The position numbers and the translations under genes were made by a program. Shown here in pieces: positions 16,272-35,879 of a stretch of DNA of 39,216 nt. The DNA lies in the NCBI GenBank assembly GCA_022616375.1, contig JAKEEW010000326.1:1-39216 (forward strand). Direction: 5' to 3'. Every line of letters starts with the position of its first letter. Positions within the stretch are counted from its first letter, which is position 1. Source of the DNA: Sporichthyaceae bacterium. Lineage in GTDB: Bacteria; Actinomycetota; Actinomycetes; JAKEEW01. The notes beneath the pieces are model-generated. The model had not been told where the DNA came from and did no database searches. It saw only the letters and a list, made by a program, of their open reading frames with translations.

Positions 16272-16290
16272 GGACTCCGCCTCCCCGAAA

Positions 16291-16662
16291 CTAGCCATCC
16301 GAGGCCGAGGTGTGCCGGGCAGCGAACTTCTCGGTCATCTCGGCGTCCCACCAGACGCTGTAGAACTGGAAGTCGGTGCCCGACTCGTTGACGATCGTGT
16401 GGTTCGTGCCGGGCGGCATGAAGGCCACGTCACCTCTGCTGAACGGGCTGCGCTCGCCATTTGCCTCGAGCACCGCGTCGCCGGAGATAGCGACGAAGAT
16501 CTCGTATTCGTGATGCGAGTGCGGGGTGGACGCCCCGCCCGGCTCGATCACGCACCAGGCCCCCTCGAACGGTGCGTTGATGGCCTCCCACGGCATCAGC
16601 CGCTGGGTCAGCGCACCGTACTCGGCCTTCATGTTGTCCCGGTCCAAGTTGCGAATATCCAC
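16291..16662 (-). CDS. Free-standing cupin, candidate hydrazine-forming (N-N) subunit
   Basis: A 123-residue single-domain cupin. The GTG at 16662 follows GGGAGGAACTG; a longer frame would enter the N-hydroxylase gene. Cupin motif 1 is complete, PHSHHEYEIFVAISG, with metal ligands H48, H50 and E54. Motif 2, GDVAFMPPGTNHTIVN, supplies H88. In known hydrazine synthetases (for example Spb40 of s56-p1 and Tri28 of triacsin biosynthesis) a zinc cupin domain fused to a MetRS-like domain rearranges an aminoacyl ester of N6-hydroxylysine into an N-N bond. Here the cupin is a separate protein, 13 bp downstream of a lysine/ornithine N-hydroxylase, and a MetRS-like protein is encoded at 25908. The role is inferred from this context. 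A plain regulatory or isomerase cupin is the alternative. Confidence 0.8.
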   Translation of the reverse strand: MDIRNLDRDNMKAEYGALTQRLMPWEAINAPFEGAWCVIEPGGASTPHSHHEYEIFVAISGDAVLEANGERSPFSRGDVAFMPPGTNHTIVNESGTDFQFYSVWWDAEMTEKFAARHTSASDG

Positions 16663-16675
16663 CAGTTCCTCCCGG

Positions 16676-17983: not shown

Positions 17984-18137
17984 CGGGTGTCCTCCTCGTA
18001 GGCGGCGGTAGATGCGCATCGAATGATGTCCGGTAGGACGGGTTCGACACGTGTCGTGGGGTAAGCCAGGCCCGCGAAATCACGCGCACGACTTCCTTCC
18101 GACGAATCGTTGTGCCGCGCACGCGGACGGTAAGTGC

Positions 18138-19613: not shown

Positions 19614-19727
19614 CGATCGTCAGCATCGCAGATGTGCAACCGACCCGCTACCGGCCGTAAACTCCTAGTTCGAGAGTGGGGTTGCGGGATTCGGACCGCG
19701 CGATCGGGCTGGCCGAGGGGGGCGCCG

Positions 19728-21182: not shown

Positions 21183-22532
21183 ATGACGCACAACGCGCTC
21201 ACCGAGAAGTACCTCGAGGAGATCGCCCGGCGCGGGGTAGGGCCAACGGAACTCATCGCCACCGCCATGCAGCCCGAGGTGCGGTTGGCTCCGACCACGT
21301 TTCTTGGCCGCTGCCTGAGCCGGCCGGTGTTCCTCGAGTACGCCGACCGGGAGCGGCTCGGCGTCGACCTGGAGAACCTGCATGCCGCCCTGACCGGGCT
21401 GCCCGCACGGCTGTTCGGTGGCGACCTGGCCGCGTTCGCCCGCGCGGTCGGGATGACCGATGCGCAGGTCACCGCAATCATGCGGGGCGGGGGCGAGGCA
21501 CCCACCCGGTTCGCCCGGGCCGATTTCTACCCGAACGGCACCGGGTTCCAGCTCATGGAGATCAACATGGGCAGCACCGCGGGTGGCGGCGACAACGCGG
21601 TGCTCACCCGCGCGTTCCTGACCCACCCGATGCTGGCCGAGTTCGTCGAGGCCAACCAGCTGGCCCACATCGACACGATGGAACAGGTCGCGGACACGTT
21701 GCTGACCGAGAGCAAGGTGCCAAGCGGGATGCGCCCGCTGGTAGCAGCCGCGGACTGGCCGGCCAGCTACGAGAAGCTGGAGCCGACGCTGCGCTACAGC
21801 GCGCAGCAGCTGGCGCCGTTCGGCATCGACATGGTGCCCTGCCATGTCGGGCAGCTGTCCGTGCACGATGGTCGAGTCTGGATCGAAGGCCGCCCGGTCG
21901 ACGTGATCTACCGGGTCTTCATGATCGAGGACCTGCTCGACCCGGTCGGGCCGGAGCTGATCGATCCGGTGCTGCGGGCCGCCGAACGCGGTGAGGTGTC
22001 CATCTTCACCCCGATCGACTCCGAGCTCTACGGCAGCAAGGGCGCGCTCGCCATGCTCTCCGACGAGGCGAACCGGCACCTCTACAGTGCGAACGAACTG
22101 GCCAGCCTGGATCGGATCCTGCCCTGGACCCGGATGGTGCGGCCCGGTTCGGTCACCGTCGAGGGCGAGCGGGTGGAGCTGGCCGACTATGCGGTCGGCG
22201 CGCAGACCGACCTCATCCTCAAGCCGACCGCCTTGCATGCCGGAATGGGTGTGGTGCCCGGTTGGATGGTCGAGCCGGACGAGTGGAAGTCCCAGCTGAC
22301 CGCGGCCATGGACGGTCCGTTCGTGCTCCAGCGCCGGATCCGGCCGGTGCCTGAGCTGTTCCCGGCCCCGGACGGGATGCAGCCGTGGGTGCTGACCTGG
22401 GGTGCGTTCCTGTCCTCCGCCGGATACGCCGGGCAGTTCGTCCGCGGCACCACCGAGCCGGACGGTGGCGTGGTGAACATGGCCACCGGCGCCACCGCCA
22501 CCAGCTGCTTCCACCAAACCGTTCCGACCTAG
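21183..22532 (+). CDS. Circularly-permuted-type ATP-grasp-like protein, copy 2
   Basis: A 449-residue close paralogue of the gene at 19728, collinear from end to end (MTHNALTEKYLEEIARRG; GDLAAFARAVGMTDAQV; FQLMEINMGSTAGGGDNAV; ELYGSKGALAMLSDEANRHL; DLILKPTALHAGMGVV). Start ATG behind GAGGGGCCCGACGA. The differences cluster in the middle (KLFTPLD versus SIFTPID; LRYGGFG versus LHAGMGV; VATNRLSFVDTLAQ versus VEANQLAHIDTMEQ). This is the pattern expected if the two copies now take different acyl or amine substrates. It is convergent with the NTF2-like gene. The fold assignment carries the same caution as copy 1. Confidence 0.75.
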   Translation: MTHNALTEKYLEEIARRGVGPTELIATAMQPEVRLAPTTFLGRCLSRPVFLEYADRERLGVDLENLHAALTGLPARLFGGDLAAFARAVGMTDAQVTAIMRGGGEAPTRFARADFYPNGTGFQLMEINMGSTAGGGDNAVLTRAFLTHPMLAEFVEANQLAHIDTMEQVADTLLTESKVPSGMRPLVAAADWPASYEKLEPTLRYSAQQLAPFGIDMVPCHVGQLSVHDGRVWIEGRPVDVIYRVFMIEDLLDPVGPELIDPVLRAAERGEVSIFTPIDSELYGSKGALAMLSDEANRHLYSANELASLDRILPWTRMVRPGSVTVEGERVELADYAVGAQTDLILKPTALHAGMGVVPGWMVEPDEWKSQLTAAMDGPFVLQRRIRPVPELFPAPDGMQPWVLTWGAFLSSAGYAGQFVRGTTEPDGGVVNMATGATATSCFHQTVPT

Positions 22533-22638: not shown

Positions 22639-22986
22639 CTACTGCAACGGCCACAGACAGGCGTGCACGCAGCGCCAGCCTTCCGGACGCCGCTCGTAGG
22701 TGTCGACGTAGCGGGTGTAACGGCCCTCGGTAACGAAGCTGCGCGCGGAGACCACTGCGGTATTGCCATCGACGTGGATCACGACCTGGTCGATCCCGAT
22801 CGTGGGCAGCGGTGCGCTGTTCACGTTGTCGATGTAGCGCTGTGGTTCCCAGACCTCGCCGGACTTGCCGTCCAGGTACCGGAAGTCCGGGGACATGATC
22901 GGCTCCAGGACCTCCCACTTGCCCTGCCGGAAGGCGTCGATGAACTGCTCGTTGAGCTCGGTCAGTTCCTTGATGTCGCTATCCAC
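22639..22986 (-). CDS. NTF2-like / DUF4440-type protein
   Basis: A 115-residue alpha+beta cone-fold protein. The GTG at 22986 follows GGGAG at about 10 nt. The N-terminal helix TELNEQFIDAFRQGKWEVLE, then MSPDFRYLDGKSGEVW, IHVDGNTAVVSARSF and the closing RRPEGWRCVHACLWPLQ are typical of the SnoaL/DUF4440 group. These small proteins act as cyclases, isomerases or hydrolases, or simply bind ligands, in many biosynthetic clusters. It lies downstream of ATP-grasp B on the same strand but 187 bp away, across the inverted repeat at 23034-23196. It may be a separate unit. No specific activity is predictable. Confidence 0.8.
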   Translation of the reverse strand: MDSDIKELTELNEQFIDAFRQGKWEVLEPIMSPDFRYLDGKSGEVWEPQRYIDNVNSAPLPTIGIDQVVIHVDGNTAVVSARSFVTEGRYTRYVDTYERRPEGWRCVHACLWPLQ

Positions 22987-23033: not shown

Positions 23034-23196
23034 AGGGCTTGTCTCCTGGGTCCTAGCCGGCGTGGATCGGCGGCCCAGACAACGACTGGCCGTGTTGTCG
23101 TCGTCGCCGATAGTTCCACTATCGGCTCCTCCTCCGCCTTGCCATTCGTCCCCTGGCCCGCCGCCCGCATCCGTCAAGACCCAGGAGACAAGCCCT
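23034..23196. repeat. 163-bp element bounded by perfect 19-bp inverted repeats (IR-C)
   Basis: AGGGCTTGTCTCCTGGGTC (23034-23052) is the exact reverse complement of 23178-23196. The right arm encodes the last residues (GLSPG) of ATP-grasp B, whose stop lies inside the element. Long perfect termini with a non-coding centre resemble a MITE-like insertion or a large hairpin. I see no clear target-site duplication. Confidence 0.7.
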
Positions 23197-24460
23197 GGAC
23201 GTCGACCGGGGCCGGGTCGACCGCCCGCACGGTCAGCGCGGCCTCGGCCGCATCGAGTGCGGCCTGGGCTTGTTCGGCCGTCTCGGTCACCGCGGTGGCG
23301 ATGGCGATCCGGCCGAACAGGGTGCCGGCCGGTGGCGGCGAGACCACGTCGCCGGCCTTCACCAGCGGCTCGGCCCGATCCACCTCGGGTGGCAGCGTCG
23401 TGTGGTCGAACTCGACGGTGTCGATCGTGGTGCGCTCCTGGTCGACGTAGAAGAACCGCACCGCACCTACCAGCTTGCGGTCCGCGACCACCGCGGGGGG
23501 TTGCCCGCAGGCCACCGCGGCCGCGGCGAGCCCCGGGTCGATCCCGGTGGCGCGCAACCCGAGATAGGGGATCAGATCGCCGCCGAGCCGCGAGTTCACC
23601 TCGATGACCTTCGGCCCGGACAGGGTGAGCTTGAGCTCGGTGTGGGTCATCCCGTCGGTGAAGCCGAGCGCGGTGTGCGTGTCCTGCACGATCCGCAGCA
23701 GCTGCGGATCGGTGAGCAGCGGGTCGGCCGCATCGACCACGTGCCCGATCTCCTCGAAGTAGGGCGGGTAGCCGATGTGTTTGCGGGCCACGAACATCGG
23801 CAGCACCTGGCCGTGGTAGACCGCGGCGTCCAGGCTGATCTCGGGCCCGGTCAGATACTCCTCCACCAGCACCGGCAGGTCGTACTGCCAGGCACCGGTG
23901 AACGTGGTGTCGTGCGCGAAGCCGAACCTGGCCACCACATCGTCCGGGCTGTCCGCCCGCACCACGCCCAAGCTGGCCGCCAGCGCGCGTGGCTTCAGCA
24001 CGACCGGGTAGCCGATCTCGGCAGCGGCCGCCAGTGCGTCGTCCAAGCTCGAGGTCAGCACCGAGCGAGGTTGCGGGACACCGGCCGCGGCCAGCGTCTG
24101 CCGGGTCAGGTGCTTGTCCCGGCACCGCATGATCATGTCAGGGTCACCGCCGGGCAACCCGAACTCGGCGGCCACCTTCGCGCTCTGCAGGATCCGGGCC
24201 TCGTCCCAGCTCAGCACGCCCTGCAGTGGCTCGCGCTGGTTGACCTCGCGGGCCGCCGCCACCATCTCCTCGACGTCGGTCGTGCTGGTCAGGTCGCTGA
24301 GCACGGTCCAGCCGTGCAGATACTCGCACTCCCAGCTCGGCTCGGCGCCGAGCAGCAAGTGCACCCGGTAGCCGGTCAAGATCGACCGCAACAGGTACTC
24401 CCGATACGGCCGGCCGCCGGTCGTGATCAGCAGCAGCAGCGGGCGCTCGGTCGGAGTCAT
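23174..24460 (-). CDS. ATP-grasp ligase B
   Basis: A 428-residue ATP-grasp enzyme starting MTPTERPLLLLITTGGRPY at 24460. The ATG overlaps the stop of the small beta-rich gene (ATGA) and is preceded by GAGGAGG. Motifs: CRDKHLTRQTLAAAGVPQPR, IGYPVVLKPRALAASLGVV with the ATP-binding lysine, DLPVLVEEYLTGPEISLDAA and the metal-binding PKVIEVNSRLGGDLIPYLG. This is the carboxylate-amine ligase pattern. A C-terminal domain of about 100 residues follows. The last residues and stop codon fall inside the inverted repeat at 23034-23196, so the native C-terminus may have been altered by an insertion. It is in the MetRS-like operon and so is probably co-expressed with hydrazine formation. Confidence 0.87.
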   Translation of the reverse strand: MTPTERPLLLLITTGGRPYREYLLRSILTGYRVHLLLGAEPSWECEYLHGWTVLSDLTSTTDVEEMVAAAREVNQREPLQGVLSWDEARILQSAKVAAEFGLPGGDPDMIMRCRDKHLTRQTLAAAGVPQPRSVLTSSLDDALAAAAEIGYPVVLKPRALAASLGVVRADSPDDVVARFGFAHDTTFTGAWQYDLPVLVEEYLTGPEISLDAAVYHGQVLPMFVARKHIGYPPYFEEIGHVVDAADPLLTDPQLLRIVQDTHTALGFTDGMTHTELKLTLSGPKVIEVNSRLGGDLIPYLGLRATGIDPGLAAAAVACGQPPAVVADRKLVGAVRFFYVDQERTTIDTVEFDHTTLPPEVDRAEPLVKAGDVVSPPPAGTLFGRIAIATAVTETAEQAQAALDAAEAALTVRAVDPAPVDVQGLSPGS

Positions 24461-24801
24461 CCGGCCACCTCCTCGATGATCGAGATACCTGACGAGCCGT
24501 CGATGCGCTTCCAGTCCTCGGTCAGCCGGACCCGCCCGTCGGCCAGCCGGGTCGGAGTGCTCACGCACGCGCCGGCCACGATCTGTCCGGCCGCGGTCAC
24601 GAAGCAGTAGGAGGCATCGATGGTGTCGTCCGGCCGCACCTGGCCGACCAGCCGGCCGACCCGGACCGAGCCGCCGGAGAACTCCGCCCAGACCAGGTCG
24701 CCGTCCTGGTGATAGTGCCCGAGCGGGATGCTGCCGCCGGCCTGCGGGTCGTGGTCAACCGGTTGGAAGCGGCGGTTGTGGTAGTCGATCCGGCTGGTCA
24801 T
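24457..24801 (-). CDS. Small beta-rich protein of the group mislabelled 'n-acetylglutamate synthase'
   Basis: A 114-residue protein starting MTSRIDYHNRRFQPVDHDPQ. Both ends overlap neighbours by ATGA (FAD enzyme upstream, ATP-grasp B downstream), so the start is firm and translation is coupled. The pattern YHNRRF, GHYHQDGDLVWAEFSGGSVR, GRLVGQV, FVTAAGQIVAGACVSTP, RLTEDWKRIDGSSG and IIEE matches a family of about 110-residue proteins often database-labelled N-acetylglutamate synthase without an acetyltransferase domain. The alternating strands suggest a small beta-barrel that could bind a ligand. The function is unknown. Its position between a DAO-like oxidase and a ligase suggests a role in handling a reactive intermediate, which is speculation. 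Confidence 0.75.
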   Translation of the reverse strand: MTSRIDYHNRRFQPVDHDPQAGGSIPLGHYHQDGDLVWAEFSGGSVRVGRLVGQVRPDDTIDASYCFVTAAGQIVAGACVSTPTRLADGRVRLTEDWKRIDGSSGISIIEEVAG

Positions 24802-25904
24802 GACGTACTCCCTCCGGTCAGCGACCTGGCGGACGGCTGGCCGATCGGCCGAAACGCACCGGCGAGCTGGTCGGCGGCCAGCTTGCTCGCCGCCAGCACG
24901 GTCTTCACCGAGCCGCCGGAGCCGCCGGTGAACGTCACCAGGAAGTGCACGGTGTCGACCACCGATCGGATCCGCAGGATCGGGTCGTCCGGGTAGCAGT
25001 CGGCGGCTCGGGCGGTGCTCAGCAGCCGGCCGAGCCGGAGCCGCGGGAACCGCGCCTCGGCCAGTGCGGCCGCCGTGTTGGCCAGCGCAGGTGCGTCCGG
25101 TGGCCGATCCGGGTCGACGCCCCACAGCTCGGTGGGTAGCCCGAGCAGCAGCCCGTCGTCCCCGGCCGGCCGACCGTACAGACCGGTGATCTCGTCCACG
25201 AACTGCGAAGGGCGCCAGCCATCGGTCCGATACACGCCGTACTGGATGGACTTGGTGCGGTAGCCGCCGGCGGGTAACCGGCTGGACCGCAACAGCGCCG
25301 GAGTCCAGGCACCGGCCGCCACCACGACGAGGTCGTACTCCCGGCGCTGACCGCCGATTGTCACCGCGACCGAGCCCGACTCGGCGAGCGTGATGGTCTG
25401 GGCCGGCGCGGCCAGCACGCAGACCCGGCGGCGGACCGCACGGTCGGCGAGCGTGGCGGCGCGTAGCGCGTCCGGTGCGGTGTAGCCGGCCACCCGTTCC
25501 AGCACCGCGGTGGCCCCGTCCGGGACTCCGACCCAGCCGAGCGCGCCGAGGTCCTCGGCCGAGCCGCGCCGCGCGGAGCCGGGCAGCAGCGTCTCGATCT
25601 CGGCGATCTCGGCATCGATCCCGCTGGCGTCGGACCGCAGGTACACCGACTCGACCGGCTGGAACCGCGCCCACCGGCGCAGCGTCCGGCTGGAGCGCAG
25701 CTCCACCATGCTGAGCGCGGCCAGCCGGCGCTGTTCGGGGTCCCGCTCGTAGCAGCGGACCGCGCCGCCGGACGCCGCGGTCGCGTCGGTCCGGTCCGGC
25801 CCGCCGGTGAGGAGGTCGAGCTGCCAGCGGGTCTGGCTGGCCAGCCGCCAGGCCAGCATGGCGCCGGCCAGGCCGCCGCCGATGATGCAGCCGTGCACCG
25901 GCAC
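24798..25904 (-). CDS. FAD-dependent oxidoreductase, DAO (glycine/D-amino acid oxidase) type
   Basis: A 368-residue flavoprotein starting at a GTG at 25904, 3 bp after the MetRS-like stop, with GGTAGGTG upstream. The N-terminus VPVHGCIIGGGLAGAMLAWRL is the dinucleotide-binding GxGxxG fold. YDLVVVAAGAWTPALL is the conserved central motif of DAO-family oxidases, and HFLVTFTGGSGGSVKTVLA is the C-terminal FAD contact. In the s56-p1 and triacsin pathways a DAO-like FAD enzyme cleaves the lysine-glycine hydrazine adduct to release hydrazinoacetate. The same step is inferred here because the gene is directly coupled to the MetRS-like gene. An ordinary amine oxidase cannot be excluded. Confidence 0.85.
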   Translation of the reverse strand: MPVHGCIIGGGLAGAMLAWRLASQTRWQLDLLTGGPDRTDATAASGGAVRCYERDPEQRRLAALSMVELRSSRTLRRWARFQPVESVYLRSDASGIDAEIAEIETLLPGSARRGSAEDLGALGWVGVPDGATAVLERVAGYTAPDALRAATLADRAVRRRVCVLAAPAQTITLAESGSVAVTIGGQRREYDLVVVAAGAWTPALLRSSRLPAGGYRTKSIQYGVYRTDGWRPSQFVDEITGLYGRPAGDDGLLLGLPTELWGVDPDRPPDAPALANTAAALAEARFPRLRLGRLLSTARAADCYPDDPILRIRSVVDTVHFLVTFTGGSGGSVKTVLAASKLAADQLAGAFRPIGQPSARSLTGGSTS

Positions 25905-25907
25905 CGG

Positions 25908-27287
25908 TCACCTACCGCCGAAGGCGGGCCGGTCTCGGCCGGCCAGTGCGGCCAGCACGCCGGAGTCCAGGCCGGCGCCGGTGGACAGCGCGGCCAGCAG
26001 GCACCGGATCGCCAGCGCGGAGTCGAAGCCGATCAGGCGCAGCGCCTGGTCGGCCCGCTCCAGCTCGGCCGCCACCAGCTCGCTCGGAACCGCGGCGTCA
26101 CGGGGTGGCTTACCGTCCAGGAATGGCCGGATGTAGTCGCAGAACGCCCGGTAGCCAGCCTCGGTGAAGTCGCTCTGGTAGCGGTCGGGCCGGTCCCAGG
26201 ACAGGTAGAGCCGGACCAGCTCGGCATCCTCGTCGGCCAGGAACTCGTCCGCCCACAACGCGTGGTTGCGGCTGGTGGAGAACTTCTTACCCTCGAGCAG
26301 GTAGAGCTCGTTCACGGTGGCACCGCGGCTGAGCGGCCTGGGCACCCCGCAGGCGGCCAGGATGGCCGGATACAGGATGGCGAAGTAGAACGCGTTGTCG
26401 ATGCCGTTGAAATGCCAGACCCCGTCGACGTCGTTCCAGGCCTCCACCCACTGGGTCAGGCCGTTGGCCCGCGGACGCAATGCGTGCGCGGCGCCGTACA
26501 GGTAGCTGAAGCCGAGCTCGGTGGGGAAGTCCACCCGCATCCCGGCCAGCGGCCCGGCTAACTCGATACCCCAGTCGGTGACGTAGGCCAGCGGGTAGTC
26601 GGGCAGCGGCGTGCGCAGGTACTGCTCCAGCACGGACCGGACCCGGCCGGGCAGCTCGGCTTGCATCCATTCGGCAAGCAACCGCTCTCGGTAGTCCTCG
26701 AGCGGCAGCACCGGCACCGTTGCGGTGACCGGCCGCGGGCTGCCGCCGCAGCGGGCGCAACTCGGGTCGACCAGGGTCTGGGCCGAGGCGAACGCCCCGC
26801 AGCCCTCGCAGGACAGCCCATTCGCGCCCTCGCCGCAGTTGGCGCACTTACCCACCACGTAGGAGTGGTGCAAGGTGCGGCCGCAGTCGGCGCACTCGTG
26901 CAGCGTGACCTCGCGCATCGGCACCGTGCCGTTGGTCACCAGCTCGGTCAGCATGCCGGCGACCGCGGCCTGGTAGCCGGGATCCTGCGGGTCGAGGAAC
27001 GCGTCGTAGCCGATCCGGGCCAGCTCGTAGGCGGTGGTGATCTGCCCGCGGAACCTGGCCACCATCTCCAGCGGATCCATGTCCAGGTTCTCGGCCTTGG
27101 TCAGCACGTAGTTCGGATGAACGTCGATCCCGGCCAGCGTGAGCACCCGCTCGCCGCGCGCGCGGGCGGCCCGCGAGGCGATGTCGGCGGCCAGGTACGG
27201 CCCGGACAGGTGGCCGATGTGCAGCGGACCGTTGCAGGTCGGCTGCGGGATGACAATGACGGTGACGCCGGTCGACTGCTCCGCCAT
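25908..27287 (-). CDS. Methionyl-tRNA-synthetase-like protein, candidate aminoacyl-activating half of a split hydrazine synthetase
   Basis: A 459-residue class I synthetase-like protein. The ATG at 27287 follows GAGGAGGGG. It keeps the catalytic signatures: PLHIGHLSGPY with HIGH at residues 23-26 and GKKFSTSR (KMSKS counterpart) at 333-340. It also keeps a MetRS-type zinc knuckle insertion with four CxxC pairs (C132/135, 148/151, 160/163, 177/180). The helical anticodon-binding region is cut to about 110 residues, so it is shorter than a housekeeping MetRS. In hydrazine synthetases this domain activates an amino acid (glycine in Spb40) and esterifies N6-hydroxylysine, and a fused cupin makes the N-N bond. 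The cupin here is a separate gene at 16291. It leads a four-gene operon controlled by promoter P2. Confidence 0.85.
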   Translation of the reverse strand: MAEQSTGVTVIVIPQPTCNGPLHIGHLSGPYLAADIASRAARARGERVLTLAGIDVHPNYVLTKAENLDMDPLEMVARFRGQITTAYELARIGYDAFLDPQDPGYQAAVAGMLTELVTNGTVPMREVTLHECADCGRTLHHSYVVGKCANCGEGANGLSCEGCGAFASAQTLVDPSCARCGGSPRPVTATVPVLPLEDYRERLLAEWMQAELPGRVRSVLEQYLRTPLPDYPLAYVTDWGIELAGPLAGMRVDFPTELGFSYLYGAAHALRPRANGLTQWVEAWNDVDGVWHFNGIDNAFYFAILYPAILAACGVPRPLSRGATVNELYLLEGKKFSTSRNHALWADEFLADEDAELVRLYLSWDRPDRYQSDFTEAGYRAFCDYIRPFLDGKPPRDAAVPSELVAAELERADQALRLIGFDSALAIRCLLAALSTGAGLDSGVLAALAGRDRPAFGGR

Positions 27288-27328
27288 CGAGGTAGCCCCT
27301 CCTCGTCCGTGGCGCGCCGGACCGGGGT

Positions 27329-27673: not shown

Positions 27674-28390
27674 GTGGACCCTGTGGTTCCGTCCCAGGAC
27701 GCCGCCGCCATCCCGCTCTGGGATGGCGCCTACGACCCGACCCAACTGCAGGGGCACGGAAATCTGTGGGGCGACCCGCCGGTCCCGTATGCAGAGACCG
27801 CAGCCAGACTGTTTGCCGATCACTCCGCGAAAGTGGTCCTCGACCTGCCGTGCGGAGACGGTCGCAACCTGCCGCCGCTGGCCGGTGGTGCCTCGATCCT
27901 GCTCGCCGGCGACACCTCGCCGAACGCGATGGCGATCGCCGAGCGGGTCGCCGCCAAGGCCGGGATCCGGGACAAGGCGATATTCGTCAAGGTCGACGCA
28001 TTCGATACCGGCCTGCTGGACAACTCGGTGGACGGGATTTTCTGCTGGGATCTGTTAGGCCACTTGACCAACCCGGAAGACGCGCTGCTCGAGATGTATC
28101 GCATCACCCGGCCGGGCGGCCACATTGTGGCCAACATGTGGACCATGAACGACTGCCAGGTGACCGATCCGAATATTCGAAAGACCGGTCCTAGGGAATT
28201 CATCGATCACTTCGAGTTCTACTGCAAGTTCTACGATCGCGACGATCTCGAGGCGCTGCTGAGCTCGGTCGGCATGACGGCCAGCTCGATCGACGTGGAC
28301 ACCTGGTGGGAGCCGCCGCATGCGGAGTACCGCACCTACGACCACCAGCACGAGAGCCTGATCTTCACGGTCGAGAAGACGGGGACCTGA
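27674..28390 (+). CDS. SAM-dependent methyltransferase
   Basis: A 238-residue class I methyltransferase. The GTG at 27674 has GGAGG 5 nt upstream. Motif I is VVLDLPCGDGRNL (residues 54-66), followed by the acidic strand ILLAGDTSPNAMAIAERV. The post-motif segment is SVDGIFCWDLLGHLTNPEDAL, then MYRITRPGGHIVANMW. The C-terminal part (FEFYCKFYDRDDLEALLSSVG) is typical of small-molecule methyltransferases. It is the first gene of a seven-gene forward operon. N-methylation of the hydrazine or of the diamino acid would be chemically sensible (negamycin, for example, has an N-methylhydrazine), but the substrate is not shown by the sequence. Confidence 0.85.
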   Translation: MDPVVPSQDAAAIPLWDGAYDPTQLQGHGNLWGDPPVPYAETAARLFADHSAKVVLDLPCGDGRNLPPLAGGASILLAGDTSPNAMAIAERVAAKAGIRDKAIFVKVDAFDTGLLDNSVDGIFCWDLLGHLTNPEDALLEMYRITRPGGHIVANMWTMNDCQVTDPNIRKTGPREFIDHFEFYCKFYDRDDLEALLSSVGMTASSIDVDTWWEPPHAEYRTYDHQHESLIFTVEKTGT

Positions 28391-28399
28391 GGAAGAGCG

Positions 28400-29398
28400 T
28401 TGCGCTATCTGCGAGAGCTGGACTCCACCCACGGCCGTCCCGGCGACTACCAGGTTGCCGAAACCGATGTCGGTGTCGGTTATGCCTCGGCGCACCATGG
28501 CGAGCTTTTGCAAGGCATGTTCTACGACCCGAACGGTCAGCTGCGTCGCGCACTGGTCACGCTGCCGGATCCGCGCCGAGGCAGCCGCGCGGTCTTTCAT
28601 CCGAGCCAGAACCACTGGGGAATCGTCGGCACCCCCGAGCTGATTAAGGTCCGGCGCGCGGCGATCATCGCATTGCGCGAGTTCTCCCGGCATCCGTCCC
28701 CGGCCAAGGGCGGCCAGATCGAGATCGCCAGCAACGTGCCGCGCGGCGTCGGGATGGGCTCGTCGACCAGCGACGTCGCCGCCACCATCCGGGCGGTGGC
28801 CGACTACCACGGAGTGGCGTTATCCCGCGACGAGATCGGCCGGCTGGCCGTGCTCGCCGAGTGCGCGTCGGACTCGATCATGATCGACGACCGGGTGGTG
28901 CTGTTCGCCCATCGCGACGGGGTGGTGCTGGAGACGCTGGGGCACCGGTTGCCACCGATGATCGTGGTCGGCTGCGACACCGCGCCCGGCGCCGTGGTCG
29001 ACACGCTCGGGCTGCAGCCGGCCGAATACAACGACCACGAGATCGGCGCGTTCCAGGTGCTGCGGGCGGCGTTGCGCCGGGCCATCGCGACCGACGACGT
29101 TGCACTGCTCGGCCGAGTCACCACCGCGAGCGCGCGAATCAACCAGCGCTTCCTGCCCAAGCCCTACCTCGAAGCGCTGCTCACGCTGTGCCAGCAGTTC
29201 GAAGGCTGTGGCGTGCAGGTCGCGCACAGCGGCACCGTCGCCGGCCTGATCTTCGATGGGCGCCGGACGGACGTGGAGCCCAGCGTGCGAGCCTGCGTCG
29301 ACCGGATCGAGGCGCTGGGCCTGGAGATCACCGCGATCATCGGGTTCGAGCCGACCACCACCGCGATCGAGATTGGCGCGGCAAGGGTTCCGGCCTGA
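28400..29398 (+). CDS. GHMP kinase, PduX-like (L-threonine/serine kinase type)
   Basis: A 332-residue GHMP-family kinase starting at TTG 28400 with GAGGAAG upstream, 9 bp after the methyltransferase stop. The N-terminal HHGELLQGMFYD and the ATP-binding loop PRGVGMGSSTSDVAA (residues 114-128), then ECASDSIMIDDRVVLF, resemble the PduX L-threonine kinase group. A C-terminal VAHSGTVAGLIFD is the GHMP motif 3. PduX makes L-threonine O-3-phosphate. The next two genes are a cysteine-synthase-like and an argininosuccinate-lyase-like enzyme, which could turn a phosphorylated hydroxy-amino acid into a 2,3-diamino acid. Threonine versus serine cannot be told by eye. Confidence 0.85.
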   Translation: MRYLRELDSTHGRPGDYQVAETDVGVGYASAHHGELLQGMFYDPNGQLRRALVTLPDPRRGSRAVFHPSQNHWGIVGTPELIKVRRAAIIALREFSRHPSPAKGGQIEIASNVPRGVGMGSSTSDVAATIRAVADYHGVALSRDEIGRLAVLAECASDSIMIDDRVVLFAHRDGVVLETLGHRLPPMIVVGCDTAPGAVVDTLGLQPAEYNDHEIGAFQVLRAALRRAIATDDVALLGRVTTASARINQRFLPKPYLEALLTLCQQFEGCGVQVAHSGTVAGLIFDGRRTDVEPSVRACVDRIEALGLEITAIIGFEPTTTAIEIGAARVPA

Positions 29399-30531
29399 TG
29401 AGCATCCGGTCCAGCTATTCCGAGGCCACCGAGGCATACCAGGTTCCGAAGCTGATCAGGCTGGCGCCGAACCTCTACGCCGCGTGCTTCACGCTGATGA
29501 AGATGATCCCGGCCCGCTACATCCTGCGCCGGGCCGAGGTCGAGGGCCGGTTGCCGCCCGGCACGGTGATTGCCGAGACCACGTCCGGCACGTTCGGACT
29601 GGCCCTGGCGATGCAGGGGATGCATCTCGACCGGCAGGTGATCCTGGTCAGTGACCCGGTCATCGACGAGCGGCTGTATCGCCGGCTGACCGATCTGGGT
29701 GCGGTTGTGGACCGGGTCCCGGCCAGTGCGGCCAAGACCGTAGGCGGCTACCAGGCCGCCCGGCTAGCTCGGCTGGAGCAGGTGCGGTCCGAGCATTCGC
29801 ACACGTTCTGGCCGGACCAGTACGGCAACCCGGACAACCCGCGCTCCTACGCCACCGTCGCCGAGCTTCTGCTCGAGTGCCTCGGTCAGGTCGACTGCGT
29901 GGTCGGCACGGTCGGTTCCGGCGGATCCATGTGCGGGACGACTACCTACCTGCGCTCGGTCCTGCCGGAGTGCCGGGCGATCGGGGTGGACGCGCACGCC
30001 AGCGTGTTGTTCGGTCAGCCGGACGGCCCGCGCGAGCTGCGCGGGATGGGGATGAGTCTGCTCCCGGCCAACCTGGACCACCGGATCTTCGACGAGGTGC
30101 ACTGGTGCACTGCCCGGCTGGCCTACGCGGCGACCCGCCAGATGCATCAGCGACACGCGCTGTTCATGGGGCCGACCAGCGGCGCGGCTTACCTGGTGGC
30201 GCGCTGGTGGGCGGCGCAAAACCCGAGTGCGCTGACCGTGGTGCTGCTGCCGGACGAGGGATACCGCTACCAGGACACGGTCTACGACGACGAGTGGCTG
30301 ATGGCCGCCGGGCATCTGGGTGGGTCGATTCCGGCCGAGCCGGTGCTGGTGGCCGATCCGACCCGGCCGGCCGAGGATCCGTGGACCACCTATGACTGGG
30401 CCCGGCGGGATCTGCCCGAGGTGTTGGCCGGCCGGCACACCTCGGCCGAGCCCAGCCCGGTCGGGCCCAGCCCGGTCCGGCCTAGCCCGGTCGGGCCCGG
30501 CTCGGCCGGTTCGGCCCGGGGGATCGGGTGA
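29398..30531 (+). CDS. PLP-dependent cysteine-synthase-like beta-replacement enzyme
   Basis: A 377-residue fold-type II PLP enzyme. Its ATG overlaps the kinase stop (TGATG). The Schiff-base lysine is probably K35 in LMKMIPARYILRRAE, which aligns with the SVKDRPAR motif of relatives but has lost its flanking residues. TTSGTFGLAL matches the substrate loop (TSGNTG) and GTVGSGGSMCGTT the PLP-phosphate loop. Relatives swap a beta leaving group for a nucleophile. After a PduX-like kinase, the expected leaving group is phosphate on threonine or serine and the nucleophile a nitrogen compound such as aspartate. The last 40 residues are low-complexity with three PSPV-x-P units, and the stop overlaps the next gene (GTGA). 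Confidence 0.85.
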   Translation: MSIRSSYSEATEAYQVPKLIRLAPNLYAACFTLMKMIPARYILRRAEVEGRLPPGTVIAETTSGTFGLALAMQGMHLDRQVILVSDPVIDERLYRRLTDLGAVVDRVPASAAKTVGGYQAARLARLEQVRSEHSHTFWPDQYGNPDNPRSYATVAELLLECLGQVDCVVGTVGSGGSMCGTTTYLRSVLPECRAIGVDAHASVLFGQPDGPRELRGMGMSLLPANLDHRIFDEVHWCTARLAYAATRQMHQRHALFMGPTSGAAYLVARWWAAQNPSALTVVLLPDEGYRYQDTVYDDEWLMAAGHLGGSIPAEPVLVADPTRPAEDPWTTYDWARRDLPEVLAGRHTSAEPSPVGPSPVRPSPVGPGSAGSARGIG

Positions 30532-32030
30532 GCGTGCCCGGCGAGCGTGGCACCGGGCGGTTGGTCGACCAGCTCGGGCTCGGCACCAGGCAGGCGGTCT
30601 ACGGCACCCCGACCGCGGCCGAGATCGCGGCCGAGCTGGCTCTCACCGTGCGGGTCGACCAGGCGCACCTGGTGATGCTGGCCGAGCAGCAGATGGTGCC
30701 GGCCGAAGCGGCCGCGGCGCTGCTGCGCTGCATGGCCGAACTGTCCGCGGACCGGTTCCGGGTCCTGCTCGACCGGCCCGTGCCGCGTGGGCTCTACCTG
30801 ATGTACGAGGGATACCTGATCGAGCGGCTCGGCCCGGACATCGGCGGCGTGCTGCACGCCGGCCGCTCCCGCAACGACCTGAAGGCGACCATCACCAGCC
30901 TGCGGCTGCGCGACTGGCTGCTGGACTTCGCCGAGCAGGCGGTCCGGCTGGAGGCGGTGCTGCTGTCCAGGGCCCGGGCCCACCGGTCCGTGGTGATGCC
31001 GATCTACACCCACTTCCAGGCCGCGATGCCGATCAGCTACGGCTACTACCTGCTCGGGGTGGCACTCGCGGTCGGCCGGGACATTGACGCGCTGCGGACC
31101 GCGGCTTCCGGCCTGCAGGTGTGCCCGCTGGGCGCGGGCGCGGTCGCCGGCACCGATCTGCCGATCGACACCGAACGCACCGCTGCGCTGCTCGGCTTCG
31201 CCGCCGGCACCCGGCACGCGCTGGACGCGGTGGCCAGCCGGGATGTCCCGCTGCGGCTGCTCGGCGCGGCCGCGGGGCTAGCGGTGACGTTGAGCCGGCT
31301 GGCCACCGACCTGCAGTTGTGGAGCACCGCCGAGTTCGGCTTCATCCACTTCCCTGACCGGCTGGTCGGCGGCAGCTCGGCGATGCCGCAGAAGCGCAAC
31401 GCGTTTGTCACCGAGCACGTCAGGGCCAAGCCGGGACACGCCATCGGTGGCTGGGCGGCCGCGGCCAGCATGATGGCCGGCACCGCGTTCACGAACTCGA
31501 TCGAGGTCGGCACCGAGGCGGTGGCCGCGCTCTGGCCCGGCCTGCGGGCCGCCGAGCAGTCGGTGCAGCTTGGCCAGGCTCTAGTCAGCGGCGCCAGACC
31601 GGTGCCGGATCGGATGCTGGACCGGGCCGAAACCGGGTTCACCTCGGCCACCTCGGTGGCCAACCGGCTGGTCCGGCATGGGGTGCCGTTCCGGACCGCG
31701 CACCGCATGGTCGGTGAGGCGGTCCGCAAGGCGATCGAGGCGGGGTCTACCAGGCTGGCCGACTTCGGGCCGCCCGGCTGGCTGGACCAGATCGGGCCGG
31801 CCGGGCTCGACCCGCGGGCGCTGGTGGACGCGCACGTCTACGGCGGCGGTCCCGGTGCGTTCGCGGTTCCGTGCGAGCAGGCCGGCGCCGCGTGGCTCGG
31901 CCACCGGCGCTGGCACCAGCGCTGGCGGCGCGAGGTGGCCGATGCCGACGCGGCGCTTGCCGCGGCCGTGGCCAGCCTCGCCGGGCCGGACTACCGGCCC
32001 GCGGTGCGCCGAGCCGGGGAGCCGAAATGA
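30528..32030 (+). CDS. Argininosuccinate lyase/fumarase superfamily lyase
   Basis: A 500-residue member of the aspartase/fumarase superfamily beginning at GTG 30528, overlapping the PLP gene stop. Signatures: GGVLHAGRSRNDLKATITSL, MPIYTHFQAAMPISYGYYLL and the mobile catalytic loop GSSAMPQKRNAFVTEHVRAK (GSS at residues 282-284). It differs from true ArgH in many usually fixed residues (for example QKRNA for KKNP) and has an extra C-terminal region. No other arginine gene is present. In 2,3-diaminobutyrate routes such a lyase eliminates fumarate from an aspartate adduct to leave the free amine. I infer the same here from its place after the kinase and PLP enzyme. Confidence 0.87.
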   Translation: MSVPGERGTGRLVDQLGLGTRQAVYGTPTAAEIAAELALTVRVDQAHLVMLAEQQMVPAEAAAALLRCMAELSADRFRVLLDRPVPRGLYLMYEGYLIERLGPDIGGVLHAGRSRNDLKATITSLRLRDWLLDFAEQAVRLEAVLLSRARAHRSVVMPIYTHFQAAMPISYGYYLLGVALAVGRDIDALRTAASGLQVCPLGAGAVAGTDLPIDTERTAALLGFAAGTRHALDAVASRDVPLRLLGAAAGLAVTLSRLATDLQLWSTAEFGFIHFPDRLVGGSSAMPQKRNAFVTEHVRAKPGHAIGGWAAAASMMAGTAFTNSIEVGTEAVAALWPGLRAAEQSVQLGQALVSGARPVPDRMLDRAETGFTSATSVANRLVRHGVPFRTAHRMVGEAVRKAIEAGSTRLADFGPPGWLDQIGPAGLDPRALVDAHVYGGGPGAFAVPCEQAGAAWLGHRRWHQRWRREVADADAALAAAVASLAGPDYRPAVRRAGEPK

Positions 32031-33271
32031 CCGGCGAGTGGCTGGTCCTGGTGGAGAGCAATACCACCGGATCCGGCCGGCTGTTCTGCGCCGCCGCGCG
32101 CCGGCTGGGACTGCAACCGGTGCTGCTGGCCCGCGACCCCGGCCGATACGGCTACGTCGCCGCCGATCGGATCGATGCCCGGGTGGTCGACACGTCGAGC
32201 CCGGACGCGGTGCGGGCGGCATGTGCCGACCTTCCCGGCCGGATCGCCGGGGTGACCAGCAGCTCGGAGTACTACATCGGGACCGCGGCCGAGGTGGCCG
32301 GTGCGCTGGGCCGGCCGCATCCGGACCCGGACGCGATCCGGTCCTGCCGCAACAAGCACAGCCAGCGCATCCGGCTCCAGCAGGCGGGGGTGCCCGGGCC
32401 GGCGTTCGCCGCCGCGCCACGGGTGCCCGAGGCGGTGGTTGCCGCGATCCGGATCGGCTTGCCGGTGGTGGTCAAGCCGGTGGCCGGATCGGGCTCGATC
32501 GGCACCCGCTCGTGCCGCACGTTGGAGGAGGTGCGGGCCGCGGCGAGCGCGGTGCTCGACACCGACCCGGCCGATCTCGCCCTCCCGCCGCAACCGGAGG
32601 TGATGGTCGAGGCGCAGCTGGACGGTGCCGAATACTCGGTGGAGACCCTGGACGACCAGGTCGTTGCCGTGATCAGGAAGCGGCTCGGGCCGGAACCGTA
32701 CTTTCTCGAGACCGGGCACGACTTCCCGGCCCCGCTCGATCCGGCCGAGCGGGCCGCGATCGGCGAGATCGCGGTGGCTGCGTTGCGGGCGCTCGGGCTC
32801 GGCTGGGGCGCCGCGCACGTCGAGGTCCGGGCCGGTGCGGTGGGTCCGCGGATCGTCGAGGTCAACCCGCGGCTGGCCGGCGGGATGATCCCGCGCATGA
32901 TCCAGGAGGCGCTCGGCGTTGACCTCATCTTCCAGGTGGTCGCGAAGGCGGCCGGCCGGGCCGAGCCGCCGCAGCCGACCAGGTCGCGGGCCGCATCGAT
33001 CCGGTTCCTGGTGGCGCCGGCGTCCGGGCGGCTGGTCGAGGTGGCGGGCATGTCCGCGGCGCAGCGGCTGCCCGGCGTGGTGGAGGTAGGGCTGACCTGC
33101 CAACCGGGGCAGGACGTGGTGATCCGCCATTCGTTCCAGGATCGGCTCGGTTACGTCATCGCTTCGGCTGCGGACGGTAACGTCGCAGCACAGGCCGCCG
33201 AGGACGGGGTGCGGGCACTCGAGGCGCGGATCGCGCCGGCTTCGGTGATAGCGGAAGGTTTCCTGCGCTGA
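32027..33271 (+). CDS. ATP-grasp ligase C
   Basis: A 414-residue ATP-grasp ligase with its ATG overlapping the lyase stop (ATGA). The start is MTGEWLVLVESNTTGSGRLF. Motifs: SCRNKHSQRIRLQQAGVPGP, IGLPVVVKPVAGSGSIGTRS (ATP-binding lysine and Gly-rich lid), PEVMVEAQLDGAEYSVETL and the metal site PRIVEVNPRLAGGMIPRMI. The closest functional analogues I recognise are L-amino-acid ligases and argininosuccinate-type carboxylate-amine ligases of small peptide pathways. Because it is coupled to the diamino-acid cassette, it may attach that amino acid. This is context only. Confidence 0.87.
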   Translation: MTGEWLVLVESNTTGSGRLFCAAARRLGLQPVLLARDPGRYGYVAADRIDARVVDTSSPDAVRAACADLPGRIAGVTSSSEYYIGTAAEVAGALGRPHPDPDAIRSCRNKHSQRIRLQQAGVPGPAFAAAPRVPEAVVAAIRIGLPVVVKPVAGSGSIGTRSCRTLEEVRAAASAVLDTDPADLALPPQPEVMVEAQLDGAEYSVETLDDQVVAVIRKRLGPEPYFLETGHDFPAPLDPAERAAIGEIAVAALRALGLGWGAAHVEVRAGAVGPRIVEVNPRLAGGMIPRMIQEALGVDLIFQVVAKAAGRAEPPQPTRSRAASIRFLVAPASGRLVEVAGMSAAQRLPGVVEVGLTCQPGQDVVIRHSFQDRLGYVIASAADGNVAAQAAEDGVRALEARIAPASVIAEGFLR

Positions 33272-34020
33272 TGGGACTTGAACACAGTGGCCGTACGCAT
33301 CGGCTGGACTGGGCAGATGCCTCGGTCCGAGAGTGGGACTGCGCCGTGGTGTGGTCCGACCCGAACGACCCGGAAGCCGGCATCGTGCTCGACCGATCCG
33401 CGTTCTACCCCGGTGGCGGCGGACAGCCGCCCGACCACGGCGTGCTGCTCTGGCAGGGGGTCCAGACCAGAATCGTCGGCACCCGCAAGAGCGAGGACGA
33501 CCTGTTCCTGCTGCCCGCGCCGGGCGATCCGGTGCCGCCGGCCGGCACCGCCGTGACCGGGGCGCTGGACGACGAGCGGCGCAGCACGCTCATGCGCACC
33601 CACTCCGGCCTGCACGTGCTCTGCGGCACCGTGTTCCGGGACTTCGGCGCGCTGGTGACCGGCGGCAACATGGAGCCGGGCGAAGCGCGGATGGACTTCA
33701 ACCTGCCGGACATCCCGCCCGGCTTCAAGCAGACCCTGGAGGACGCGGTGAACGTCGAGATCACCGCGGACCGGCCGATCGAGGTCCGCTGGCTGCCCCG
33801 AGCCGAGGCGCTGGCGATCCCGGACATCGTGCGCACCCAGGACCGGTTTCCGCCCGAGATGGAGCAGATGCGGGTGGTCGACATCGTCGGCCTGGACGCG
33901 CAGGCGGACGGCGGCACACACGTGGCCTCGACCAAGCAGATCGGCCAGATCCAGGTGGTCAAGGTGGACAACAAGGGCCGGCAGAACCGCCGGGTGCGGA
34001 TCAGGCTGGTGAGTGAGTGA
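33271..34020 (+). CDS. AlaX-like alanyl-tRNA editing domain protein
   Basis: A 249-residue protein overlapping the ATP-grasp C stop by one base (TGATG). It has the AlaRS editing-domain order: AFYPGGGGQPPDHG, then the zinc motif THSGLHVL with H111 and H115, a GEARMDFN strand and, near the end, DGGTHVASTKQIGQIQVVKV. In most AlaX and AlaRS proteins the last motif begins with a zinc-binding cysteine (CGGTH). Here it is D213, with H217 retained. AlaX proteins hydrolyse mischarged Ser- or Gly-tRNA(Ala). Possible roles are self-protection against a product misread by tRNA synthetases, or handling of an aminoacyl-tRNA or aminoacyl ester intermediate. Confidence 0.85.
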   Translation: MGLEHSGRTHRLDWADASVREWDCAVVWSDPNDPEAGIVLDRSAFYPGGGGQPPDHGVLLWQGVQTRIVGTRKSEDDLFLLPAPGDPVPPAGTAVTGALDDERRSTLMRTHSGLHVLCGTVFRDFGALVTGGNMEPGEARMDFNLPDIPPGFKQTLEDAVNVEITADRPIEVRWLPRAEALAIPDIVRTQDRFPPEMEQMRVVDIVGLDAQADGGTHVASTKQIGQIQVVKVDNKGRQNRRVRIRLVSE

Positions 34021-35879
34021 CCGGTACCTCGGTGGCCATCGTCGGGCTCGGCTCTCGCGGGCTCAGCGTGCTCGAACGCGTGGTCACGCTGTCCCGCACG
34101 ACCGCGGCGACCACCGGAGGGGTCCGGGTGGAGCTGATCGACCCGGACTGCGACGGCGCCGGGGTGCACGGCACCGGGCAGCCCGACTATCTGCTGCTCA
34201 ACACCACCTGCGGGCAGGTCTCGATGTTCCCCGATCCGCCGTCGGTCGGCGACGACCTGGCCGGATCGGGTCCGAGCCTGTACGAGTGGGTGACCGGGCG
34301 CGGGTTACGGATCGGCGAGGACGGCTTCACCGTCGGCCCGAGCGGCCGGGCGATTCGGCCCACCGACTTCTTACCGCGCCGGGTGTTGGGGGAGTACCTC
34401 GGCTGGTTCCTGCGACACGTGCTGGCCGCAGCGCCTTCGCATCTGCAGGTGACCATGCACCGGACCACTGCGGTCGACATCCGGTCCGAACTGGATGGGT
34501 CACTAGCCATCGAGCTGGCCGGCGGATCCGAGGTGCAGGTCGGCTATGCGTTCCTGACCACCGGATACACGCCTAACGCGGCAACTGGCACCGGACCCGA
34601 CCCGGGCAGCCGGATCATCCCGGCGCCCTACCCGTTGCCGGAGCAGCTGGGCCTGGTCGCCCCGGCCGAGACGGTGGCGATCGGCGGGTTCGGCTTGTCC
34701 GCGATGGACCTGCTGTCCAGCCTGACCGTCGGTCGCGGCGGCCGGTTCGTGCCGGCGCCGGACTCACCGGCCGCGCCGCCCGCGTACTTCCCGAGCGGGC
34801 GGGAGCCGCGGGTGCTGATGTTCGCCCGGTCCGGCGTGCCGTGCCGGGCCCGGCCACTGGTGACCCAGTTCGGCCCCAAATACCGGCCGGTGGTCCTCAC
34901 GACCGCGCAGATCGACCGACTCCGGGCGGCCCGAGGTGGCCCGCTGGACTTCGACGCCGACGTGCTGCCGCTGGTGTTCACCGAGATGCGGATCGCCTAC
35001 CGGCGATGCCAGGCCCGCTGCACCGGCACGCCGGCGGCGCAGGTGCTCGAGCAGGCGCTGGCCGGCGCGGCCGGCCCGGCCGAGATCGAGCGGCTGCTCG
35101 ACGAGCTGGATGCCAGACTCGGCCGGTTCGATCCGGCGGCCACGTTCGACGGCACGTCAGGGATGGCGCTCGACGATCGCGACGCCTACCAGGGCTGGCT
35201 GGCTGAGGTGCTGCGCGAGGACCTGGCTGAAGGGGTGCTCGGGTTCGCCGGCAGCCCGGTCAAGGCGGGCCTGGACATCCTGCGCGACCTGCGCGACACG
35301 ATCCGCTACATCGTCGACTTCGGCGGGCTCACTGATGCCTCGCTCGAGGTGTTCAACGGGACAACGGTGCCGCTGATGAACCGCGCCGTGGTGGGACCGC
35401 AGTTCGAACGGCACACCGAGCTGCTCGCGCTGATGGCGGCCGGCATCGTCAGCGTGCCGTTCGGTCCGGCTCCCAAGGTCAGCTGGGACGGCGAGGCCGG
35501 GCGGTGGACGATCGCGTCGACCCGGTTGGGTGTCCCGCACCGCGAGACCGCGGACTGGCTGGTGTCCGGCCACGTCGACCTGCCCGCGGTCGAGTCCTCG
35601 CTCAGCCCGCTGATCCGCACCCTGCACCGCAACGGGTGGATCCGGCCGTTCCGGGCGGACAGCCGTTACGTGAGCGGTATCGACGTCGACGCCGACCAGC
35701 ATCCGGTGGACGCGTCCGGGCGTTCGCAGTCGCGGCTGTGGGTGCTCGGCCCGATCTGCGAAGGCGCCACGTTCTACAACAACCTGGTCCCGTCACCCGG
35801 GGTGTACTCCCGACCGATCGCGGATGCGCACCGGTGCGTGACCGCGATGTTCGCCGCCGACCGGGTTCCGGTCGGCTAG
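34017..35879 (+). CDS. FAD/NAD(P)-binding oxidoreductase (PF13454-like)
   Basis: A 620-residue flavoprotein. The GTG at 34017 overlaps the AlaX stop (GTGA), so it ends the forward operon. The N-terminus SVAIVGLGSRGLSVLERVV is an FAD-binding Rossmann motif, and DYLLLNTTCGQVSMFPDPPS fits the NAD_binding_9 group. A second dinucleotide site is VAIGGFGLSAMDLLSSLTVG. LWVLGPICEGATFYNNLVPSPGVYSRP is the conserved C-terminal FAD contact of this family. Such proteins occur in several natural-product clusters as hydroxylases or dehydrogenases with largely unproven roles. The last residues (DRVPVG) and the stop lie in the first of two tandem hairpin repeats (35855-35914). Confidence 0.82.
   Translation: MTGTSVAIVGLGSRGLSVLERVVTLSRTTAATTGGVRVELIDPDCDGAGVHGTGQPDYLLLNTTCGQVSMFPDPPSVGDDLAGSGPSLYEWVTGRGLRIGEDGFTVGPSGRAIRPTDFLPRRVLGEYLGWFLRHVLAAAPSHLQVTMHRTTAVDIRSELDGSLAIELAGGSEVQVGYAFLTTGYTPNAATGTGPDPGSRIIPAPYPLPEQLGLVAPAETVAIGGFGLSAMDLLSSLTVGRGGRFVPAPDSPAAPPAYFPSGREPRVLMFARSGVPCRARPLVTQFGPKYRPVVLTTAQIDRLRAARGGPLDFDADVLPLVFTEMRIAYRRCQARCTGTPAAQVLEQALAGAAGPAEIERLLDELDARLGRFDPAATFDGTSGMALDDRDAYQGWLAEVLREDLAEGVLGFAGSPVKAGLDILRDLRDTIRYIVDFGGLTDASLEVFNGTTVPLMNRAVVGPQFERHTELLALMAAGIVSVPFGPAPKVSWDGEAGRWTIASTRLGVPHRETADWLVSGHVDLPAVESSLSPLIRTLHRNGWIRPFRADSRYVSGIDVDADQHPVDASGRSQSRLWVLGPICEGATFYNNLVPSPGVYSRPIADAHRCVTAMFAADRVPVG

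Follow-up and report, generated by a model that had tools for sequence, protein, structure and literature searches.

The window analysed here, an entire contig of 39,216 bases (JAKEEW010000326.1) from a Sporichthyaceae draft genome of 4.64 Mb in 971 contigs, carries on its forward strand adjoining genes for a GHMP kinase, a pyridoxal phosphate (PLP) enzyme, and a lyase of the argininosuccinate lyase (ASL) superfamily, which are the subject of this study. A preliminary description had placed three overlapping genes between positions 28400 and 32030, and the open reading frames (ORFs) and Pfam domains bear this out. The kinase ORF (28400-29398, +; 332 amino acids; GHMP_kinases_N, E 9e-15) shares 1 bp with that of the PLP enzyme (29398-30531, +; 377 amino acids; PALP, E 1e-30), in TGATG at 29396-29400, and the latter overlaps the lyase ORF (30528-32030, +; 500 amino acids; Lyase_1, E 4e-37, and ASL_C2, E 2e-12) by 4 bp, GTGA at 30528-30531. 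The domains likewise agree with the naming of the second and third products as a cysteine-synthase-like enzyme and an ASL-superfamily lyase. The label "PduX-like" given to the kinase is fair but distant: the protein has the fold and motif of PduX-type GHMP kinases (GMGSS at 118) and is about 27% identical to the annotated Salmonella PduX.

The chain of overlaps continues past the lyase through genes for an ATP-grasp ligase (32027-33271, +), an AlaX-type alanyl-tRNA editing protein (33271-34020, +), and a flavin (FAD) N-oxygenase (34017-35879, +), and a gene for an S-adenosylmethionine-dependent methyltransferase (27674-28390, +; Methyltransf_11, E 2e-16) ends 9 bp before the kinase gene. We therefore regard these genes, in the order methyltransferase, GHMP kinase, SbnA-like PLP enzyme, ArgH-like lyase, ATP-grasp ligase, AlaX, and flavin N-oxygenase, as one seven-gene operon (27674-35879). 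Identical content and order, with the methyltransferase gene adjoining that of the kinase, were found at four other loci (L048, L049, L051, and L052), so the arrangement is not a matter of chance.

Distribution of the cassette and its ATP-grasp ligase

A genome-collection scan, with nine aligned PLP homologues as the query, yielded 201 relatives of the PLP enzyme, of which the best 80 were kept; shares of loci refer to those 80, and a gene was counted as present where tblastn matched the window protein at E 1e-6 inside the fetched flank. Genes for the PLP enzyme, the lyase, and the ATP-grasp ligase occur together at 69 of the 80 loci, and the kinase joins them at 56, as it does in the window, where the four genes span 28400-33271. 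Among the 11 loci without the trio is L118, a contig of 3.6 kb, and at L053 and L093, the only loci where a lyase appeared without a match to the ligase, the DNA stops inside the lyase gene or just where that gene ends. The lyase and ligase also match the two halves of PRK02186, an NCBIfam model of 890 positions named "argininosuccinate lyase," the first half matching the ATP-grasp protein at 350 bits (frame scanned from 31871) and the second half the window lyase at 413 bits, and for this reason the pair appears to exist elsewhere as a fusion. The nearest relative of the ligase in the PDB is the L-amino acid ligase BL00235. A role for the cassette's ATP-grasp gene was not found in the literature searched, which mostly excluded subscription papers. 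The preliminary description, in counting three genes, identified genes that are real but missed this ligase as the fourth. Its constancy across many taxa as part of the phospho-amino-acid/aspartate/fumarate cassette means that a three-step proposal is probably incomplete.

The cassette ranges over actinomycetes, Azospirillum and other proteobacteria, acidobacterial and cyanobacterial bins, and one archaeal bin; a scan of viral contigs with the PLP enzyme gave no matches. Nonribosomal peptide synthetase (NRPS) motifs, located by a loose pattern search, lie inside the fetched DNA at 40 of the 56 four-gene loci. Annotated plasmid records place the cassette inside NRPS clusters (Streptomyces NBC_01351, NBC_01707, and ITFR-16) and also in regions with no NRPS genes in view (Azospirillum ramasamyi and Sulfuriferula). 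The four genes stand in the order kinase, PLP enzyme, ATP-grasp ligase, lyase in Rhizonema cyanobacterial, Woesearchaeota, and Pyrinomonadaceae bins (L099, L102, and L103).

The kinase and PLP enzyme alone are encoded in plasmid regions of nodule bacteria and their relatives (L030, L044, L046, and L047), where the window lyase and ligase proteins were searched in L030 and the other regions were judged by annotation. This two-gene plasmid unit was seen in Cupriavidus, Paraburkholderia, Bradyrhizobium, and Mesorhizobium, with MmgE/PrpD genes near it in L044 and L047. At L031, L033, and L034 the kinase is paired with a more distant PLP enzyme, about 30% identical, and the L031 pair adjoins iron ABC-transporter and DUF364 genes, a hint of a metallophore.

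Identity of the lyase and choice of nucleophile

The preliminary description named true argininosuccinate lyase activity as the finding that would speak against its proposal, and one explanation of the third gene is that it encodes the cell's own argininosuccinate lyase, recruited or misplaced. The window lyase does score above the curated ArgH cut-off (290.4 versus 279.5 bits), and it is the sole gene to do so in the window's assembly, a draft listed as 96.75% complete in which neither argG nor a second argH above the cut-off was found. These absences, however, fit a gap in a draft of 971 contigs, and a second ArgH is present in the genomes of all eight relatives, in seven of them complete at 555-588 bits and in one a fragment at a contig end. 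The cassette lyases of L048-L055 (n = 8) score 276-293 bits on the same model. All seven complete ArgH proteins keep the segment Y-[ND]-R-D-x-Q-E-D-K-E, whereas the window lyase has TNSIEVGTEA at the Y-[ND]-x-D-x-Q-E-D-K segment of ArgH; a script search found N-[ST]-IEVGTE in nine of 11 other lyases, the remaining two (L177 and L178) giving no pattern match. The GSSAMPQKRN loop is retained in the cassette lyases. With the QEDK motif replaced, and with a distinct ArgH in the relatives that scores roughly double, the cassette lyase is, judged by its sequence, not the housekeeping ArgH, and we have rejected that identity as extremely unlikely. A precedent for another role is EDDS lyase, a member of the same superfamily that couples fumarate with (S)-2,3-diaminopropionate to form toxin A, the reverse of the lyase step that we propose (PMC10792612).

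It had also been suggested that the PLP enzyme might take a hydrazine nucleophile, such as hydrazinoacetate or a lysine hydrazine, giving a 3-hydrazino amino acid and leaving the lyase to serve another step. The cassette is indeed divergent from a hydrazine-type module that includes the methionyl-tRNA synthetase (MetRS)-like half of a split system of the hydrazine-synthetase type (25908-27290, -; tRNA-synt_1g), and this companion set is seen again at L051, as well as in the L049 and L048 genomes, where it lies on separate contigs (L145 and L147, respectively). In a maximum-likelihood tree the window PLP enzyme clusters with eight sequences (support 98/96), and four of these nine clade members (window, L048, L049, and L051) belong to genomes that encode a close homologue of the hydrazine-type MetRS-like protein, whereas the genomes of the other five (L050 and L052-L055) have a best MetRS-like match of 28-31% identity. 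The PLP enzymes of those five are nonetheless 62-70% identical to that of the window, and L050 and L053 fall within its own six-row subclade. Between hydrazine and nonhydrazine rows, no position separates the PLP enzymes (4 versus 5 rows), compared with 1 for the lyase (4 versus 5), 6 for the ligase (4 versus 4), and 12 for the kinase (4 versus 3), which is less clean in this respect than the PLP enzyme. Since close relatives of the PLP enzyme occur in five genomes lacking the hydrazine-type synthetase and no residue sets the groups apart, both groups most likely use one and the same nucleophile, something other than a hydrazine. The lyase, conserved throughout, would have no role if a hydrazine were used. 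On this distribution and these residues we rejected a hydrazine nucleophile, which we consider improbable, and the unfailing presence of a fumarate-type lyase points to aspartate instead.

The PLP-binding lysine and other segments of the enzyme are invariant over the 81 aligned sequences. Its active-site stretches, compared across the window and lipopeptide clades with a view to telling serine from threonine use, show few fixed differences; position 219 is Met in the window's six-row subclade and Asn in the others. The genomes listed here, some having hydrazine genes as well as the cassette and some lacking them, make the question of the nucleophile directly testable.

A proposed 2,3-diamino acid pathway

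We think it probable that kinase, PLP enzyme, lyase, and ligase make up a module of four enzymes producing a 2,3-diamino acid by a logic of phosphorylation, beta-replacement, and fumarate elimination, each chemical step being one that we infer from the protein families, gene order, conservation, and motif changes. The GHMP kinase would phosphorylate L-Thr or L-Ser, the PLP enzyme would exchange the phosphate for the amino group of L-Asp to give an N-succinyl diamino acid resembling toxin A, and the ArgH-like lyase would eliminate fumarate and leave the 3-amino group in place. The ATP-grasp ligase would then link the product, or the succinyl precursor of that product, through an amide bond. The earlier proposal of a 2,3-diamino acid survives as the best reading of the families, motifs, and co-occurrence, without its hydrazine alternative and its plain three-step scheme.

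A variant of this pathway has the ligase act before the lyase, so that the module delivers a diamino-acid dipeptide and not the free amino acid. The correspondence of ligase and lyase to the halves of PRK02186 and the kinship with an L-amino acid ligase favor the variant, as does the order kinase, PLP enzyme, ATP-grasp ligase, lyase in Azospirillum, Rhizonema, and others, which could mirror the order of steps. The actinobacterial order, however, is PLP enzyme, lyase, ligase, and in NRPS lipopeptide clusters the expected building block would be the free amino acid; we treat the variant as possible but doubtful.

Several observations weigh against the four-step pathway. The plain scheme of three steps leaves the ATP-grasp enzyme unexplained, yet the ligase is found with the lyase at every locus whose DNA extends far enough. 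A lyase need not follow the PLP enzyme in every case, given that L115, L117, L119, and L121-L123 have the kinase and PLP enzyme only. The PLP enzyme reaches 198.5 bits on the SbnA model, under the cut-off of 349.95. Kinases of the lipopeptide type are mostly about 29-36% identical to that of the window, so a common specificity for threonine is not assured. For pacidamycin, which had been suggested to use the same logic, the accounts of uridyl peptides consulted give threonine and ammonia, not phosphothreonine and aspartate (PMC10714638), and the mureidomycin 2,3-diaminobutyrate synthase likewise uses threonine and ammonia (PMC3179956).

At L052, from Actinokineospora, the seven-gene block stands in a genome without a hydrazine-type MetRS-like gene, and the methyltransferase, AlaX, and oxygenase therefore go with the diamino-acid cassette. 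The sole PDB match of the oxygenase is 8cp2, the FzmM-type L-Asp N-hydroxylase of Streptomyces sp. V2, which it matches over its full length (182 bits, 34.8% identical over aligned residues) and with which it shares the catalytic core residues Arg13, Asn62, Arg266, Arg409, Arg412, and Arg416 (8cp2 residue map). Unlike FzmM and CreE, it has replacements at the residues that contact Asp, in all five aligned members: Asn413 to Asp or Glu, Arg577 to Ser, and the neighboring Val571 to Tyr. In the L-Asp N-hydroxylase, V571F raises the Km for Asp to >4 mM and N413A to >1 mM (PMC10404684). The window enzyme would be an N-hydroxylase for a substrate other than Asp; the acidic side chain at position 413 would go well with an amino group.

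The oxygenase also raises the question of whether it and the lyase form a nitrous-acid pair like CreD/CreE (Asp to nitrosuccinate to nitrite and fumarate), with the cassette serving N-N chemistry. Its match to an L-Asp N-hydroxylase and the conserved core Arg and Asn residues fit such a pair, but the altered Asp contacts disfavor it, the lyase usually occurs without the oxygenase (present at 4 of the 80 loci), and L052 has the oxygenase without the hydrazine-type synthetase. We judge the nitrite pair a poor prospect.

The AlaX protein has a tRNA_SAD domain (E 1e-10) with HSGLH (HxxxH) and GGTH motifs and scores 221.8 bits on the AlaXM model, below its cut-off of 300. A second AlaX, 69% identical, is encoded elsewhere in the window's genome, as would be expected if the copy in the operon serves self-protection, and the latter may guard the producer from mischarged tRNA-Ala. 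The methyltransferase and the flavoenzyme would modify the diamino acid by methylation and N-hydroxylation; uridyl peptides are known to contain N-methylated 2,3-diaminobutyrate (PMC4572928 and PMC10714638), which fits a methyltransferase beside the cassette.

Between 2,3-diaminobutyrate from threonine and 2,3-diaminopropionate from serine, the evidence is close to balanced, tilting slightly toward the former. The nearest large PLP clade is of the lipopeptide type, and the Streptomyces canus cassette (L064) adjoins a methylaspartate mutase gene, both of which speak for threonine. Amphomycin contains 2,3-diaminobutyrate, and we take S. canus DSM 40017 to be ATCC 12237. The ATCC 12237 strain is an amphomycin producer (PMC9113097), and gausemycin contains 2,3-diaminobutyrate as well (PMC12471526). 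The case for serine comes from the AlaX gene. Proteins of this type act on tRNA-Ala mischarged with small residues. The diaminopropionate derivative beta-N-methylamino-L-alanine (BMAA) is charged by alanyl-tRNA synthetase (PMC7904546 and PMC9414260), which together with that editing activity argues for diaminopropionate.

The chemistry of the cassette is of an already known kind. Its PLP enzyme resembles SbnA, the diaminopropionate synthase of staphyloferrin B, in its proposed phosphate beta-replacement, and Lys35, in LMK, aligns with SbnA chains in the PDB; in contrast to the SbnA/SbnB system, the enzyme lies under the SbnA cut-off, no SbnB-type (ornithine-cyclodeaminase-type) family matched among the window ORFs scanned, and a lyase replaces the dehydrogenase. 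The window lyase is likened to EDDS lyase, as an ArgH-superfamily C-N lyase, by its proposed reaction. EDDS lyase, unlike it, is used synthetically and to our knowledge is not part of a kinase/PLP operon. Calcium-dependent lipopeptide clusters of the gausemycin or amphomycin type share with the window PLP, ASL, ATP-grasp, and kinase genes, the PLP enzymes being mostly 54-63% identical, and the B188M101 gausemycin cluster, of the type containing 2,3-diaminobutyrate, carries a cysteine synthase and an ASL (PMC12471526). The window differs from them in its distant kinase, in the added methyltransferase, AlaX, and N-oxygenase genes, and in the lack of an NRPS domain match in the ORFs scanned. What is new is this seven-gene, hydrazine-linked, NRPS-free setting, with a constant ATP-grasp partner, an aspartate-hydroxylase relative whose Asp pocket is altered, an AlaX, and five ATP-grasp-type ligases.

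Putative hydrazine genes and ligases of the cluster

On the divergent strand upstream of the block, the MetRS-like gene is followed by genes for a DAO-family oxidoreductase with a proposed Spb39-type role (24798-25904, -; PF01266, E 1e-20) and an ATP-grasp ligase (23174-24568, -; ATP-grasp_4). Farther left lie a lysine/ornithine N-monooxygenase gene (16676-18019, -; PF13434, E 9e-87), an adjoining free-standing cupin ORF (16291-16764, -; Cupin_2 domain at 16351-16557, 56.2 bits), which completes the split system, and another ATP-grasp ligase gene (14922-16298, -; ATP-grasp_4 and LAL_C2). The MetRS-like ORF has 540 amino acids, with a probable start at Met81, and contains no cupin domain. Spb40, which acts with Spb39 in the hydrazinoacetate pathway (s56-p1, triacsin, azaserine, and N-nitroglycine), is a fusion of cupin and MetRS-like domains (PMC10445470). 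The window shares with this pathway the N-hydroxylase, the cupin and MetRS-like parts, and the DAO-type oxidase, and departs from it in encoding cupin and MetRS-like domains as two separate genes and in the absence of any carrier protein or NRPS domain match among the ORFs scanned. Homologous free cupins are encoded in L144-L150, and L051 gave a weak match. The free cupin, the cupin-less MetRS-like protein, the N-hydroxylase, and the DAO protein support the placing of the cassette beside hydrazine genes, and a hydrazine context for the cluster is plausible.

In Labedaea rhizosphaerae DSM 45361, the strain that carries L051, a region (L144) upstream of and slightly overlapping L051 holds a second set consisting of a MetRS-like gene (32%), a cupin gene, an N-hydroxylase gene (60%), two ATP-grasp genes (55%), and a DAO gene (41%), and the combined region may make two hydrazino units.

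The window cluster has five ATP-grasp-type ligases, three of the L-amino acid ligase type and two paralogues resembling glutathione synthetase (copy 1, 19632-21074, +; copy 2, 21183-22532, +), which are 72% identical in a self-comparison. Pfam gave no match to either member of this pair (U480/U449) even with the threshold at E 5, and U449 had no useful PDB sequence match (one chance-level row). The predicted fold of copy 2 matches eukaryotic-type glutathione synthetase (Foldseek best, E 4e-18, TM 0.60), a placement made with one of five models, at a mean pLDDT of 84.7 versus 60-67 for the others. Homologues of the paralogues are present in six of the eight related genomes searched, one of them (G399:C6:470119) about 4 kb past the end of the L051 stretch. 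With five such ligases and no NRPS domain matched, the product is probably a peptide assembled by ATP-grasp-type ligases. These enzymes, and not an NRPS, would join the diamino acid to a lysine-derived hydrazino acid from the divergent genes, and the probable product of the cluster is a small, uncharacterised peptide that contains both a diamino acid and an N-N-bonded unit.

A more detailed scenario is tentative and, taken as a whole, rather unlikely. The block would yield a 2,3-diamino acid that is both N-methylated and N-hydroxylated, either an N-methyl-diaminobutyrate or a BMAA-like N-methyl-diaminopropionate; the flavoenzyme would descend from an aspartate hydroxylase whose target shifted from acidic to amino side chains; AlaX would provide dedicated trans-editing self-resistance against mischarging of tRNA-Ala with the diamino acid; and the ATP-grasp-type ligases, as many as five, would join the modified residue to the hydrazino acid without an NRPS. 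If true, this would define a new class of hydrazine-containing peptide. The substrates of the N-oxygenase and of AlaX would reveal the product of the cluster.

Other genes of the region encode a major facilitator superfamily transporter, possibly an exporter (18297-19613, -; PF07690), and a SnoaL/DUF4440 protein (22639-22986, -; PF14534) with a 64% identical homologue in L145. A fungalysin-type M36 peptidase at 6264-9505 (-) extends over two overlapping frames, with the propeptide in one and the catalytic part in the other, which suggests a frameshift or an assembly error. Two adjacent ScyD/ScyE-family proteins (12237-13382 and 13704-14840) are encoded at the edge of the cluster.

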